From: Bacteroidales bacterium
Lineage (GTDB): Bacteria; Bacteroidota; Bacteroidia; Bacteroidales; UBA932
Reading direction: 5' to 3'
Length of the DNA: 64,000 bases
Assembly (NCBI GenBank): GCA_017447265.1
Contig: JAFSOA010000017.1
Location: 94,723 to 158,722, forward strand
In this document: in pieces, positions 47,505-64,000 of the stretch
Position numbering within the stretch: position 1 is the stretch's first letter
How the letters are laid out: every line of letters begins with the position of its first letter
Translations under genes and position numbers: made by a program
Notes under the pieces: model-generated
Database searches by the model: none
What the model saw: only the letters and a program-made list of their open reading frames with translations
What the model was told of the DNA's origin: nothing

Positions 47505-49172
47505 CTATATAGCCGCCAGGATCAGGATCTGCGCGGAAACCACGCGCAGGAACATCGTCAAAGGATAGACCGTGGAATAACTGACGGCAGGGATGTCGTT
47601 GGGTGAGTTGCTCGTGATGAACGACAGGGCGATAGGGTTGGTCATACTGCCCGAAAGGGTCCCCATCAGGGCGAAATAGTTGAACTTGAACACCAGACGG
47701 CCGACGATGCCCATGATAAGGATCGGAATGACCGTGATCAGGAAGCCATAGAACACCCACACGTAGCCGCCGCCCGTCAACGTGCTCACGAACTCCGGAC
47801 CGGCCGACAGGCCGACTGCCGCCAGGAAGAGCGAAATGCCGATTTCACGCAGCATCAGGCTGGCGCTGATGGTGGTGTAGGTGACCAGGTGGAAGCGGGC
47901 GCCGAAGCGGCTCAGCAGGATGGCGACGATGAGCGGACCGCCGGCCAGACCGAGTTTCACCGGCAAAGGGATGCCGCTGATGTGGAACGGAATCATGCCG
48001 ACCAGCACGCCGAGCAGGATACCGATGAACATCGGGATGATGTTCGGTTCGCGCAGTCGCTTCTGGGAGTTTCCCAGCAGGCCGGCCACGTCGTTGATGG
48101 AACTTTCCGTACCCACGACGGTCAGGCGGTCGCCCAGCAGGAGTTCCAGCGAAGGCGAGGCGACCAGGTCGAGGCCCGATCGGTTCACGCGCGTCACATT
48201 GACCTTGAAATGATTGCGAAGCTGCAGGGCACCGAGCTGTTTGCCGTTGATGCTGGGGCGCGTCACCAGGATGCGGCGCGACACCAGTTCCGTGTTCTTG
48301 CTCTCTTCGTCCCAGGCTTCCTGCGGCATCTCGATCTGCCGGCCCAGAAAGGCCACGACGGCCTCGGTATCGCGGGGATCGGACACGAAGAAGACTTTGT
48401 CGTGCAGGCCGATGACGGTCTGCGCGTCGGCCAGGATAGGCTCGGCACCCGCCTTGAGCACGCGCGATACCACGAAGTTGCGGTTGAGCAGCCGGGCCAC
48501 TTCCCAGACCCGCTTGCCGTCGAGCTGCGGGTTGGTGATTTCCACGGTAATGCGGTCGGGGTCGTGGGTCTCGATGACGTGCTCCTTGTGCAGGCGCTCA
48601 TCTTCCTGGACAGGATCCACCCGGAAGACCCTGCGCAGCACGATCAGGGCCAGGATCAGGCCGATGACGCCCAGCGGGTAGGCCACGGCATAACCCAGGG
48701 CGATGGAAGGCTCGGACGAGCCCATCGTGTCGAGATAGGTCTGCTGGGCGGAACCCAGGGCCGGGGTGTTGGTGACGGCGCCGGCCATCACGCCGGTCAG
48801 CGAGACCAGGCTGGTGCCGCTGATCATGGAGATCAGGCAGGTAACCAGAATGCCGACCAGGATGACGCCGATGGAGAGCGCGTTGAGCTTGAGCCCGTTC
48901 TGCTTGAGGGAGGAAAAGAAGCCCGGGCCGACCTGCATACCTACAGAATATATAAAGAGGATGAGGCCGAACTCCTTGACGAAACCCAGCACCTGGGGAT
49001 CAATGCCCATGCCGAAATGGCCGAGTGCGATGCCGACGAACAAGATCCAGGTGACACCCAGCGAAATGCCGCCGATCTTGACCTTGCCCAGCAAGGTGCC
49101 CAGGGCGATGGTGGCGGCCAGGATAAATATGATGTGGGCAGTGCTGCTGCCGAAAAGTAACTCAGAAAACAT
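47505..49172 (-). CDS. AspT/YidE-type aspartate:alanine exchanger-family transporter
   Basis: Inner-membrane transporter of 555 aa. Two blocks of about five hydrophobic helices (residues about 10-185 and 385-555) flank a cytoplasmic region with two RCK-C (TrkA-C) domains (residues about 205-285 and 290-375). The helical halves share the family pattern (GLILFIYSVGMQVGPGFF in the first, G-I-S-L-F-L-A-A-V-G-L-S-A-G in the second). Substrates are unproven for most members; AspT itself exchanges aspartate and alanine. A TACCTTTGC box (complement 49207-49215) precedes it, back-to-back with the trp promoter. Confidence 0.9.
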   Translation of the reverse strand: MFSELLFGSSTAHIIFILAATIALGTLLGKVKIGGISLGVTWILFVGIALGHFGMGIDPQVLGFVKEFGLILFIYSVGMQVGPGFFSSLKQNGLKLNALSIGVILVGILVTCLISMISGTSLVSLTGVMAGAVTNTPALGSAQQTYLDTMGSSEPSIALGYAVAYPLGVIGLILALIVLRRVFRVDPVQEDERLHKEHVIETHDPDRITVEITNPQLDGKRVWEVARLLNRNFVVSRVLKAGAEPILADAQTVIGLHDKVFFVSDPRDTEAVVAFLGRQIEMPQEAWDEESKNTELVSRRILVTRPSINGKQLGALQLRNHFKVNVTRVNRSGLDLVASPSLELLLGDRLTVVGTESSINDVAGLLGNSQKRLREPNIIPMFIGILLGVLVGMIPFHISGIPLPVKLGLAGGPLIVAILLSRFGARFHLVTYTTISASLMLREIGISLFLAAVGLSAGPEFVSTLTGGGYVWVFYGFLITVIPILIMGIVGRLVFKFNYFALMGTLSGSMTNPIALSFITSNSPNDIPAVSYSTVYPLTMFLRVVSAQILILAAI

Positions 49173-49248: not shown

Positions 49249-49257
49249 TACCTTTGC
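49249..49257 (+). promoter_or_regulatory. -7 promoter box for the trp leader
   Basis: TACCTTTGC, a perfect -7 element; a TTTTG lies 23 bp upstream (49221-49225). Predicted transcription start is near 49260, just before the leader peptide. Confidence 0.65.
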
Positions 49258-49275
49258 ACACAGAAAGACGAAATA

Positions 49276-49329
49276 ATGACAATGAAACGTATGAACAACA
49301 ATTGGTGGTGGCACTTGCAACTGATTTAG
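49276..49329 (+). CDS. Tryptophan leader peptide (attenuator)
   Basis: A 17-codon ORF reading M-T-M-K-R-M-N-N-N-W-W-W-H-L-Q-L-I, with three consecutive TGG codons at 49303-49311 and a TAG stop at 49327-49329. ATGs at 49282 and 49291 could also start it. It begins about 15 bp after the expected transcription start and is followed by a terminator that overlaps a competing antiterminator helix. The arrangement is that of ribosome-stalling transcription attenuation: low charged tRNA-Trp stalls the ribosome on the Trp codons and lets the downstream trpB2 gene be read. Confidence 0.88.
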   Translation: MTMKRMNNNWWWHLQLI

Positions 49330-49388
49330 TCGCAAGGGAACCAGCCATTTGTCTCAGATATACAAAAAAGGCCTGTCGAACTTGCGAC
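49329..49388 (+). promoter_or_regulatory. Antiterminator helix of the trp attenuator
   Basis: GTCGCAAG (49329-49336, starting at the last base of the leader stop codon) is an exact complement of CTTGCGAC (49381-49388), which is the loop and right arm of the terminator. A ribosome finishing the leader would cover the first segment; a ribosome stalled at the Trp codons would leave it free. Confidence 0.75.
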
Positions 49389-49400
49389 AGGCCTTTTTAG
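49367..49400 (+). terminator. Attenuator terminator upstream of trpB2
   Basis: AAAGGCCTGTCG (49367-49378) pairs perfectly with CGACAGGCCTTT (49385-49396) around a 6-base loop, followed by T residues. It ends 46 bp before the trpB2 ATG. Confidence 0.9.
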
Positions 49401-49445
49401 TTGGCGAAAATCCTAAAAATCATTAATAAATTAAAACTTACAGCC

Positions 49446-50819
49446 ATGAAACAGAAAAAATTCCTGCTCCCGGAAAGCGAGATTCCGACCCACTTCTTCA
49501 ACATGCAGGCAGTCATGCCCAACAAACCCCTGCCGATCCTCAACCCCGCCACGAAGCAGCCGCTGACCCCAGAAGACCTGTATCCCCTCTTCTGCAAGGC
49601 CTGCGCCGACCAGGAACTCAACCAGACCGACGAATGGATTCCCATCCCTGAGCCGGTTCGCGAGCAGTATGCCGCATACCGCTGCACTCCGCTGGTGCGC
49701 GCCTACGAGCTGGAGAAAGCCCTCGGCACCCCGGCCCACATCTATTTCAAGAATGAAAGCGTGAGCCCTGCCGGCAGCCACAAGCTCAATTCTGCCCTGG
49801 CCCAGGCCTACTATGCCAAGGAACAGGGTGTCACCAACATCACTACCGAGACAGGAGCCGGCCAGTGGGGCGGTGCGCTCTCCTATGCCGCCAAAAAATT
49901 CGGGCTGGAGCTCGCCGTGTACATGGTGAAGGTCAGCTACGAGCAGAAGCCTTACCGCCGCAGCATCATGCAGACCTTCGGTGCCGCCATCACCCCGTCG
50001 CCGTCGATGTCGACCCGCGCCGGCAAGGATATCCTGACCATCAACCCGAATGACCGCGGCTCGCTGGGCTGCGCGATCTCCGAAGCCATCGAGCTGGCCG
50101 TGACCACGCCCAACTGCAAATACACCCTGGGGTCCGTGCTCAACCACGTGTGCCTGCACCAGTCCATCATCGGCCTGGAGGCCGAGAAGCAGATGAAGCT
50201 GGCCGGCGAATATCCGGACATCGTGATCGCCTGCTTCGGCGGCGGTTCGAACTTCTCGGGCATCGCCTATCCGTTCATGCGCCACAACATCCAGGACGGC
50301 AGGAAGACCCGCTTCATCGCCGCCGAACCCGCTTCCTGCCCGAAGCTCACCCGCGGCAAATTCGAATATGACTTCGGCGACGAGGCCGGCCTCACCCCGC
50401 TGCTGCCGATGTACACCCTGGGCCACGGCTTCAAACCGGCCAGTATCCACGCCGGCGGTCTCCGCTACCACGGTGCCGGTGTCATCATGTCGCAGCTCAT
50501 GAAAGACGGACTGATGGAAGCCGTCGACATCCCGCAGCTCGACTCGTTCAATGCCGGCGTGCTCTTCGCCCGCACCGAAGGCATCATCCCCGCTCCGGAA
50601 TCCTGCCACGCCATCGCCGCCACCATCGGCGAAGCGCTCAAATGCAAGCAGACCGGAGAGGAGAAGACCATTCTCTTCAACCTCTCCGGCCATGGTTTCG
50701 TAGACATGGCTGCCTACGATCAGTACTTCTCGGGTGAGATGCAGAACTACAACCTCAGCGACGAGGAGATCGCCCGCTTCATCAAGCCGGTCGACGACCT
50801 CAACCGCGACCTCAAGTAG
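49446..50819 (+). CDS. trpB2: Tryptophan synthase beta chain, TrpB2 type
   Basis: PLP enzyme joining indole and serine to make tryptophan. Start at the ATG at 49446 (MKQKKFLLPESEIPTHFFNM); the frame extends upstream only into the attenuator. The 457-aa length, the N-terminal extension and the N-T-V/E-S-V-S-P-A-G-S-H-K-L-N motif with K113 as PLP lysine identify the TrpB2 group rather than classic TrpB1 (about 395 aa). The phosphate loop F-G-G-G-S-N-F-S-G is intact. No trpA or other trp gene is adjacent, so it may salvage indole alone. The trp leader in front is direct support for a role in tryptophan supply. Confidence 0.93.
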   Translation: MKQKKFLLPESEIPTHFFNMQAVMPNKPLPILNPATKQPLTPEDLYPLFCKACADQELNQTDEWIPIPEPVREQYAAYRCTPLVRAYELEKALGTPAHIYFKNESVSPAGSHKLNSALAQAYYAKEQGVTNITTETGAGQWGGALSYAAKKFGLELAVYMVKVSYEQKPYRRSIMQTFGAAITPSPSMSTRAGKDILTINPNDRGSLGCAISEAIELAVTTPNCKYTLGSVLNHVCLHQSIIGLEAEKQMKLAGEYPDIVIACFGGGSNFSGIAYPFMRHNIQDGRKTRFIAAEPASCPKLTRGKFEYDFGDEAGLTPLLPMYTLGHGFKPASIHAGGLRYHGAGVIMSQLMKDGLMEAVDIPQLDSFNAGVLFARTEGIIPAPESCHAIAATIGEALKCKQTGEEKTILFNLSGHGFVDMAAYDQYFSGEMQNYNLSDEEIARFIKPVDDLNRDLK

Positions 50820-50822
50820 CCG

Positions 50823-52802
50823 CTACTCGACAACCAGCACGAAGCCGCCGCCAGGAGCCAGATGCACCTGCAGCGGCTTCTTCGTTTGTACTTTCAGCGA
50901 TTCCTGCCTGTAGTCCGTGGCGTTGCGCGTGGCATTGACGCCGTCGCAGAAGAGTACGGCATCGTGGTCCCCCTTGAGGCCCAGGGCACCCAGGTCGATC
51001 TTCAGGTCGCGTGCGTCCCAGTTGGTGAGGCCGCCCACATACCAGGTGCTGCCGCTGCGGCGCGCCGTGACAATGTACTGCCCGATCTCGCCCTGCAGCA
51101 CGCGGGTCTCATCCCACACAGTCGGGATGGCGGTGATGAAATCGGTGGTCTGCTGCTCCTTCATGTAGGCGGTGGGGTTGTCACAGAGCATGACCAGCGG
51201 GGAATCGAAGATGATGTATTCGGCGACCTGCCGGGCACGGGTTCCCTGGCTGGACGGATTGCTGTAGTTGGGCACGAATTCCCGCTGGAGCATGTTCCGC
51301 ATCGCACCCTGCGTATAGTCCACCGGCCCGGAGAGCTGGCGGATGAAGGGGAAGGTGACATCGTACACCACCTGGTCGTTCTTGCTCCATTTCATCTGCT
51401 CCAGGCCCCAGACGCCCTCGAAATTGATGACATTCGGCCAGGTGCGGTTCATGCCGGCAGGCTTGTACATACCGTGGTAGTCCACCAGCAGATTGTGCCG
51501 TGCACAGGTTTCGGCGATGCGGTAGAGCATCTCCGTCACGGGCTGGTCGTCGCGGTCCATGAAGTCGATCTTGAAGCCCTTGACGCCCATCTTTGCATAG
51601 GTCTTGCAGGCTTTCTCGAGGTCTTTGTCGAGCACGTAGCAGACGGCCCAGAGGATGAGGTCCACGTTTTTGGAGGCGGCGTAGCGGCACAGTTCCTTCA
51701 GGTCGATGGCCGGCTTGATCTTCATGATGTCGAGCGGCTCCGACCATCCCTCGTCGAGCACCACGTATTCGATGCCGTTGGCAGCGGCGAAATCGATATA
51801 GTATTGATAGGTTTCCGTATTGATGCCGGCAGGAAAATCGACGCCGGTGATATTCCAGTTGTTCCACCAGTCCCAGGCCACCTTGCCGGGCTTGATCCAG
51901 CTGATGTCCTTCACGCGGCTGGGCGAGGCGGTCAGCCAGACGAGGTTGTTGACCGGCAGGTCGGCGTCCTTCCCGGCAATGGCCAGCAGGCGCCAGGGGA
52001 AGTAGCGCGGGGCTTTCTTCGAGGCGTTCTCCCGGATGACGGCCAGCTTGCCGGAATATTCATCGACGAAGACCTGTCCGCGGGTCGCCGTCTCGTGGAC
52101 CTTCTCCGGGACGGGGGCGAAATCGCCTTTCAGCGAGAGACCCGGTCCCTTGCGGAGAAACATGCCGGGGTAGGCTTCGATGTCGGAATCGGTGATTTCG
52201 AGGCGCAGCCCGCCATCCAGGCAGACCAGCAGCGGCGTGAAAGCGGGCTGGTCGGGATGGAAAGCGCTCAGCGGCGCTACGGTATACTGGTTCTCGAACG
52301 AAGTGGCGTAGGGGTTTTGGGTGCCGGTGCTGTAGGGTACGTAGGTCGTATAGTCGCGGCTGAAGTTGAACTCGGCGCATTCCGCCGTCACGCAGGCGCC
52401 TTTCTTGACCGAAGTCGACCAGAAGCGGTAGCCCACGCCCTCGCCGTCGTACGCACGGAAGGTCAGTCCCCAGCCGTCGCCCAGCTCCAGCGTGAGCTGG
52501 TTGTAGCTTTCCGTGAGGGAGGCCTGCCGCCAAAGCGGGGAAGAAACGGTCTGTTTCACTTTTTCCGTCCTGGCCGACTTGACCTTGGCCTCCTGGCCGA
52601 TGATCTTCCCGTCGACGGTCATCGAGACCGCGGAGGGGGCCAGGACTTCCTTGCCCTGGTGGGTTACGCTCCAGACGATCTGTCGTCCGGCGTCGACCGT
52701 GACTTCTGTCTTGCGGTCGGGGGAAGTCAGTTTGTAAATCTTGGCGTCAGCGCCGGCCACGGTCAGCGCGGCCAGCAGGAAAAAAGTGAGAATCCGTTTC
52801 AT
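50823..52802 (-). CDS. Glycoside hydrolase family 97 enzyme (alpha-glucosidase or alpha-galactosidase)
   Basis: Exported or periplasmic enzyme of 659 aa with a signal peptide (AGADA), an N-terminal beta-sandwich (residues about 22-290), a (beta/alpha)8 barrel (about 300-560) and a C-terminal sheet. GH97 motifs include V-A-W-D-W-W-N-N-W, Y-V-V-L-D-E-G-W-S and G-F-K-I-D413-F-M-D-R-D-D. From family knowledge, retaining members use an Asp at this place, whereas the inverting SusB type lacks it and uses two Glu. An Asp here suggests a retaining enzyme, but I would not fix the sugar specificity. Convergent with trpB2, 3 bp apart. Confidence 0.88.
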   Translation of the reverse strand: MKRILTFFLLAALTVAGADAKIYKLTSPDRKTEVTVDAGRQIVWSVTHQGKEVLAPSAVSMTVDGKIIGQEAKVKSARTEKVKQTVSSPLWRQASLTESYNQLTLELGDGWGLTFRAYDGEGVGYRFWSTSVKKGACVTAECAEFNFSRDYTTYVPYSTGTQNPYATSFENQYTVAPLSAFHPDQPAFTPLLVCLDGGLRLEITDSDIEAYPGMFLRKGPGLSLKGDFAPVPEKVHETATRGQVFVDEYSGKLAVIRENASKKAPRYFPWRLLAIAGKDADLPVNNLVWLTASPSRVKDISWIKPGKVAWDWWNNWNITGVDFPAGINTETYQYYIDFAAANGIEYVVLDEGWSEPLDIMKIKPAIDLKELCRYAASKNVDLILWAVCYVLDKDLEKACKTYAKMGVKGFKIDFMDRDDQPVTEMLYRIAETCARHNLLVDYHGMYKPAGMNRTWPNVINFEGVWGLEQMKWSKNDQVVYDVTFPFIRQLSGPVDYTQGAMRNMLQREFVPNYSNPSSQGTRARQVAEYIIFDSPLVMLCDNPTAYMKEQQTTDFITAIPTVWDETRVLQGEIGQYIVTARRSGSTWYVGGLTNWDARDLKIDLGALGLKGDHDAVLFCDGVNATRNATDYRQESLKVQTKKPLQVHLAPGGGFVLVVE

Positions 52803-63902: not shown

Positions 63903-64000
<98 letters not shown>

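Follow-up and report, generated by a model that had tools for sequence, protein, structure and literature searches.

The locus treated here lies in the window, i.e. the whole analysed stretch of 64,000 nucleotides from a Bacteroidales bacterium, and raises the question of what a tryptophan attenuator could regulate in front of a single trp gene. The gene concerned, trpB2 (49446..50819, forward strand), was assigned to a TrpB-like PLP enzyme by profile matches and gene layout. An AspT/YidE-type transporter gene is divergent from it (47505-49172, opposite direction) and an alpha-galactosidase gene is convergent with it (50823-52802), and the encoded protein passed the cut-offs of NF009057 (687.2 bits, cut-off 366) and TIGR01415 (582 bits, cut-off 518.85), which bears out the orphan trpB2 named in a preliminary description of this DNA. 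For the trpB model TIGR00263, the protein stayed below the cut-off (147.9 bits vs 392.45). Based on the sequence, its conservation and covariation, the gene content and the computed folding, it is highly probable that an attenuator of the Bacteroid-trp type controls this lone trpB2, most likely for indole salvage.

Elements of the leader and computed switching

A -7 promoter box had been proposed, and TACCTTTG is indeed present at 49249..49256 on the forward strand, as read from the sequence; compared with the Bacteroidetes -7 consensus TAnnTTTG, we take it to be promoter-like. The start of the leader was judged from aligned orthologues, as most close ones keep an MKR start. This makes the ATG at 49282 more likely than the one at 49276, so that the predicted leader ORF (MKRMNNNWWWHLQLI followed by a stop, 49282..49329, forward strand) comprises 15 codons. 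The 17 codons described before hold if the ATG at 49276 is used; a further in-frame ATG lies at 49291, and the stop codon TAG occupies 49327-49329. As had been claimed, the leader contains three tandem tryptophan codons (TGG TGG TGG, 49303..49311, forward strand), and their columns are invariant in the alignment A3, whose 14 rows were picked for carrying the leader.

All further elements are located on the forward strand. Region 1 (CTTGCAACT, 49314..49322) lies in the last leader codons and forms the 5' arm of a 1:2 hairpin, while region 2 (AGTCGCAAG, 49328..49336) is the partner of either region 1 or region 3, both assignments being based on pairing and folding. Region 3 (CTTGCGAC, 49381..49388) is made up of the loop of the terminator and the first part of its right arm, and is the antiterminator partner of region 2. 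The complementarity reported for eight bases at the leader stop proved to be exact, since GTCGCAAG at 49329-49336 is the reverse complement of region 3. The intrinsic terminator (49365..49398) shows covariation, is followed by a U tract and has a computed energy of -22.3 kcal/mol. Its stem (49365-49378 / 49385-49398) is a perfect 14 bp instead of the 12 bp described before, with nine mostly G-C pairs and five A-U pairs, and encloses the 6-nt loop AACTTG. The leader folds beyond chance, with 0 of 200 dinucleotide shuffles as stable and a z of -4.2; TGGTGGTGG by itself is frequent and occurs at 66 places in the genome. Altogether, the 1:2 hairpin, which is absent from the preliminary description, makes the attenuator a full classic 1-2-3-4 device.

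From these elements we infer leader translation, ribosome stalling and read-through, which would be connected as follows. With ample charged tRNA-Trp, the ribosome would run on to the leader stop and cover region 2; the terminator would form and transcription would end ahead of trpB2. A shortage of charged tRNA-Trp would stall the ribosome at the three tryptophan codons, so that it covers region 1 but leaves region 2 free to capture the emerging loop of the terminator and the first part of its right arm; the terminator would then be delayed and trpB2 transcribed. In an untranslated leader, region 1 would hold region 2, resulting in the terminator by default. This 1:2, 2:3 and 3:4 logic with tandem tryptophan codons resembles that of the trp leader of proteobacteria (RF00513), as in trpL of E. 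coli. Region 2 of E. coli trpL pairs with the left arm of the terminator, whereas region 2 described here would capture the loop and the right arm. Membership in the proteobacterial Trp_leader family was ruled out by a score of 14.3 bits for RF00513 (cut-off 41).

The computed energy of the 1:2 hairpin amounts to -8.3 kcal/mol and that of the antiterminator duplex to -11.4 kcal/mol. Partition functions were calculated for growing transcripts from which the RNA beneath the ribosome had been taken out, the ribosome being assumed to reach 14 bases beyond the initial base of the codon in the A site. For a stall on tryptophan codon 1 or 3, the antiterminator probability was 1.00 at the 3' ends 49386, 49388 and 49390 and had fallen to 0.72 or 0.90 by 49392; with the RNA blocked up to 49323, as in a stall, it stayed at 1.00 from 49386 to 49390. 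When the ribosome was on the stop codon, or absent, the probability was 0.00 and the terminator formed from 49390 on. The computed fold of the growing transcript thus flips with the position of the ribosome, in agreement with the two states proposed beforehand. For 3' ends from 49394, including the full length, the terminator was thermodynamically preferred even in the stalled state; therefore, the decision window is brief and switching must depend on kinetics. Since region 2 binds both the loop and the right arm, pairing could start at the loop while the right arm has yet to emerge. Sequence, computed folding and comparative data together support the attenuation logic that had been put forward, in which translation and stalling at the tryptophan codons are the presumed steps.

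Tryptophan genes and the probable role of trpB2

Among the 40 genomes of the genus, none showed a trpA above the cut-off (three fragments of 17.9-19.4 bits lay below it), and trpF gave no match in any of them; both genes were detected in 14 of 14 control genomes. Thirteen of the 40 genomes are at least 90% complete. Since the genome containing the window is 78.66% complete, the absence of trpA from it rests on its relatives. A TrpB match was missing in ten of the 40 genus genomes, including the 98%-complete G031. Based on the searches for trpA and trpF, the rumen-type Bacteroidales host seems unable to make tryptophan de novo.

Because the lineage appears to be without trpA and trpF, the switch would govern indole salvage and not the full pathway: TrpB2 would join external indole to serine (or O-phosphoserine), yielding tryptophan. 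No tryptophanase match was obtained in the own genome, and the indole would therefore have to be external. In the genus, 20 of the 40 genomes showed matches to TIGR02617, none of them above the cut-off, and one protein checked, L253 of G028, scored above the cut-off of NF053783, a different tryptophanase model. The salvage proposed here is like that described for Thermococcus (TrpB1/TrpB2) and Bifidobacterium, where TrpB joins external indole to serine (PMC11085991). In its passages on this subject, PMC11085991 cites the conversion of indole to tryptophan by TrpB paralogues in Thermococcus kodakarensis and reports a TrpB-dependent use of external indole in Bifidobacterium; unlike in the present case, these passages mention no attenuator.

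A different role of the enzyme would also be compatible with the attenuator as described, if TrpB2 took an acceptor other than indole or served another step of a pathway. TrpB2 enzymes vary in substrate, and TIGR01415, one of the two models passed by the protein, is a hypothetical-equivalog model. The control by tryptophan codons, and the fact that this leader type is followed by either trpB1 or trpB2, point to tryptophan as the product, which makes another acceptor unlikely.

Conservation, covariation and spread of the leader

For comparison, 109 loci with TrpB relatives were used, consisting of the best 80 of 596 and 29 from genus genomes; L028 and L113 are without upstream DNA and were left out of the leader counts. 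The last version of the leader rule (a WW leader and a terminator within 300 bases upstream) gave 41 of 107 loci, the window not counted, and misses at least L032, L064, L117 and L118. The second leader finder gave 42 of 108 loci, of which L026 and L088 are probably false, and misses at least L014, L047, L064, L093, L117 and L118, where a leader is visible. The first finder gave 39 of 108 loci and overlooked the window's own leader.

Within this set (the best 80 of 596 and the 29 genus loci), the WW leader with terminator was found in 12 of 12 orthologues with at least 90% TrpB2 identity, in 17 of 20 at 85-90% and in 4 of 7 at 80-85%, followed by 5 of 45 at 75-80%, 1 of 18 at 70-75%, 0 of 1 at 60-70% and 2 of 2 at 50-60%. 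For the trpB1 loci of the same set, the last rule gave 0 of 2, yet both display a leader on inspection. Judged by these counts, the leader is near-universal in close relatives and mostly absent further out, and is apparently confined to part of the tree. Orthologous loci lacking tryptophan codons or the antiterminator complementarity had been named beforehand as an argument against attenuation. This argument applies in part at a distance, namely at 70-80% identity, where 6 of 63 loci of the set (best 80 of 596 and 29) carry the leader and L064 is at least one rule miss.

Some loci of the set show further features. Three orthologues of 85-87% identity without leader (L026, L027 and L029) exhibit, by eye, a terminator-like hairpin between trpB2 and an apparent upstream gene on the same strand. 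In L013, the stretch separating the attenuator terminator from the start of trpB2 contains several near-identical units of about 20 bases (~2345-2500), and in three related genomes (L014, L015 and L016, ~1370-1541) one or two tRNA genes are located about 1 kb before the attenuator-trpB2 unit.

Across 42 loci, two of them probably false, the duplex of region 2 with the own terminator showed a mean of -16.1 kcal/mol compared to -12.4 kcal/mol (sd 0.49) with permuted partners, and 0 of 5000 permutations were as low; for L088, L114 and a few others the pairing of region 2 was no better than that of shuffled letters. Covariation of 49329-49336 with 49381-49388, which had been suggested as a check, was observed as compensatory changes in close orthologues in two alignments, A3 with its 14 rows hand-picked among leader-bearing loci and A4 with 14 additional rows, likewise selected by hand and almost all WWR-type. 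In A3, 99.1% of the antiterminator cells were paired, with double-sided changes in two pairs, a number attained by 26 of 500 shuffles; in the terminator, 6 of 14 pairs had double-sided changes, which none of 500 shuffles attained. In A4, 97.6% of the antiterminator cells were paired, with double-sided changes in three pairs (attained by 2 of 500 shuffles), and the terminator also showed three such pairs (attained by 106 of 500 shuffles, but by none of 500 when cells with double-sided changes are counted). Because the alignment rows are related, these shuffle counts are not probabilities, and the controls are weak for the double-sided changes in the A3 antiterminator and the A4 terminator. When the partner columns of A3 and A4 were slid by 1-3, pairing fell from 91-99% to 14-53%. 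The 1:2 hairpin was paired in 100% (A3) and 99% (A4) of the cells, with just one covarying pair per group. In leader rows chosen for WW, the in-frame tandem tryptophan codons were constant while the other leader codons varied.

The spread of the leader type was determined with the model R1, which was built from A3, i.e. from trpB2 leaders only. In the own genome, R1 (85 of 570 first-look candidates scored) detected one forward full-length site and two other matches antisense at the same place, and neither these candidates nor the genome scan with RF01692 revealed a further tryptophan attenuator. Strong full-length sites (at least 38 bits) amounted to 18 in 18 of the 40 genus genomes, each at a trpB, and 12 of them are rows of A3; of the 22 genomes without a strong site, 10 are also without a TrpB match. 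A second R1 match in G028 (C16, 29.1 bits, L169) was rejected, as it contains no TGGTGG and appears by eye as a plain terminator after a gene.

At an E-value of 1e-5, R1 matched at least 80 of the 299 family genomes in 13 of 25 genera, the filters losing weak matches, and the 83 matches correspond to 82 places after one antisense piece was dropped. Among the 82 places in the 299 genomes, 76 are followed within 330 bases by trpB1 or trpB2; 31 precede trpB1, with 23 in trpA-bearing genomes, and 45 precede trpB2, with 2 in trpA-bearing genomes. Of the remaining places, one is at a trpB2 but shows no WW leader where the spacing would call for it, and five have no trpB in the DNA retrieved, which in three cases is a short stretch at a contig end. 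Though derived from trpB2 leaders, R1 detects leaders directly before trpB1, including those of trp clusters in related Bacteroidales. Nineteen trpB1 loci were inspected, and in 14 of the 15 with enough DNA a TrpE-like gene came next by eye. Two of the TrpE-like genes had TIGR00564 as best profile (422.3 and 404.8 bits, under the cut-off of 517.7), and the third gene of a further locus, L204, is TrpG-like (TIGR00566, 187.7 bits, cut-off 121.05). Two genomes of the own genus, G028 and G029, have the leader in front of a trpB1 (TIGR00263 above cut-off) with an ABC-transporter-like gene adjoining by eye, and trpA was not found in them. Altogether, the leader type heads trpB1-trpE(-trpG) in the clusters seen and stands on a lone trpB1 or trpB2 where trpA is absent.

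The trpB1-first trp clusters of family members, together with the failure to find trpA and trpF in the 40 genomes of the own genus, could also be explained by a leader that is the relic of a lost trp operon, in which the terminator remains and tryptophan sensing is gone. Decay would cost the tryptophan codons or the complementarity, whereas all 12 orthologues of at least 90% identity among the best 80 of 596 and the 29 genus loci keep the WW leader with terminator, and paired bases change in compensation. Moreover, the leader precedes trpB2, which is different from the trpB1 of the clusters. A relic is therefore very unlikely, and a functional attenuator of trpB2 is preferred.

Known RNA families and meaning of the proposed switch

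The Bacteroid-trp family RF01692 aligned to the leader in full length (model 1-131 of 131 over 49256-49377) with 47.1 bits, below the gathering cut-off of 49, and E-values of 6.4e-5 (221 bases) and 1.4e-4 (genome). A scan of the window at gathering thresholds returned the 5S rRNA at the window end (63903-64000, minus strand) alone, and no leader match. Among 40 related loci scanned, the cut-off was reached by L117 alone (53.2 bits). At an E-value of up to 1, 15 of the 40 genus genomes matched RF01692, one above the cut-off; since 3 of 14 control genomes, two of them non-Bacteroidetes, matched as well, such weak matches by themselves say little. The leader shares with RF01692 the ORF with tryptophan codons, an AGUCGYAAG-type element and the terminator start, and differs from it in scoring below the cut-off and in preceding a lone trpB2 in a lineage without detected trpA or trpF. 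Judged from these sequence features, the leader is clearly homologous to RF01692 and lies just outside the formal family by the curated cut-off. Due to this homology to a catalogued element, the mechanism itself is of a known kind; unusual here is the context of a lone trpB2. The Bacteroid-trp motif is tabulated as a probable cis-regulatory RNA of Bacteroidetes in PMC2864571, in whose main text a term search found neither "tryptophan" nor "leader peptide".

The trpB motif RF04312 resembles the leader in its terminator-like hairpin and in lying upstream of trpB in some genomes. The part of PMC11109978 dealing with this motif places it in Firmicutes and Fusobacteria, mostly before an ABC transporter gene, and proposes it as a riboswitch candidate, the authors leaving a classic attenuator possible. 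By analogy, tryptophan might be sensed here by a riboswitch or an RNA-binding protein (TRAP-like or T-box-like) with the WWW ORF being incidental, but such an identity was rejected as extremely improbable, since RF04312 scored 19.4 bits (cut-off 59), no T-box family occurred among 48 leader matches up to an E-value of 10, and the tandem tryptophan codons stay in frame in rows picked by WW, where other codons vary. In the literature, leader genes are treated in many phyla in PMC4833913, the trpB2 case not being met in its pertinent sections. The authors of PMC2965389 stated in 2010, in the passage concerned, that they knew of no leader-peptide systems shown beyond Proteobacteria and Actinobacteria, save their own Firmicutes case and ermC. 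Among the search results listed from open-licence papers, no report of a tryptophan attenuator on an orphan trpB2 was found.

A separate observation concerns leader ORFs with tyrosine codons (for example MNRIFTNNYYYYYYRRSTDRG, MRTILSNRYSYCYSRSFDRV and MIRFQSTYYYYCYCNSTLRIA), which together with a terminator-like hairpin were seen by eye upstream of a tryptophanase/tyrosine-phenol-lyase-like gene in L248 (G008), L249 (G013), L250 (G011), L251 (G028), L252 (G029) and L215 (G043; gene named by eye). Twenty loci of this enzyme family were retrieved, and in the other 15 of them no run of tyrosine codons with terminator was found by eye. Two of the enzymes reached 434.8 and 417.0 bits with TIGR02618 (cut-off 720.7). 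The search for tyrA (PF02153) gave no match in the five same-genus genomes with tyrosine leaders, nor in 26 others of the 40.

A tyrosine attenuator on a phenol-salvage enzyme is possible. We suggest tentatively, considering it somewhat doubtful, that in this Bacteroidales family the Bacteroid-trp leader stays on whichever trpB (1 or 2) survives the loss of the pathway and becomes an indole-salvage switch, with a parallel tyrosine attenuator for tyrosine from phenol. The odds of this joint reading are lowered because tyrA is undetected in 31 of the 40 genus genomes anyway, and because the tyrosine-leader enzymes pass the cut-off of the general tryptophanase-subfamily model NF009709 only. If true, fermentation waste would be a source of scavenged aromatic amino acids, and a cognate leader peptide would govern the supply of each.

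For the attenuator on the lone trpB2, the proposed switch would connect an RNA element that is spread through the family with what an orphan TrpB2 does in the cell. The leaders also allow natural attenuators to be compared within Bacteroidetes, whose ribosomes rarely use Shine-Dalgarno sites. A gene induced by tryptophan shortage, with the rest of the pathway missing, would most simply be a salvage enzyme that makes tryptophan. This leads to the prediction that such gut and rumen bacteria would take up the indole of others when tryptophan is scarce.
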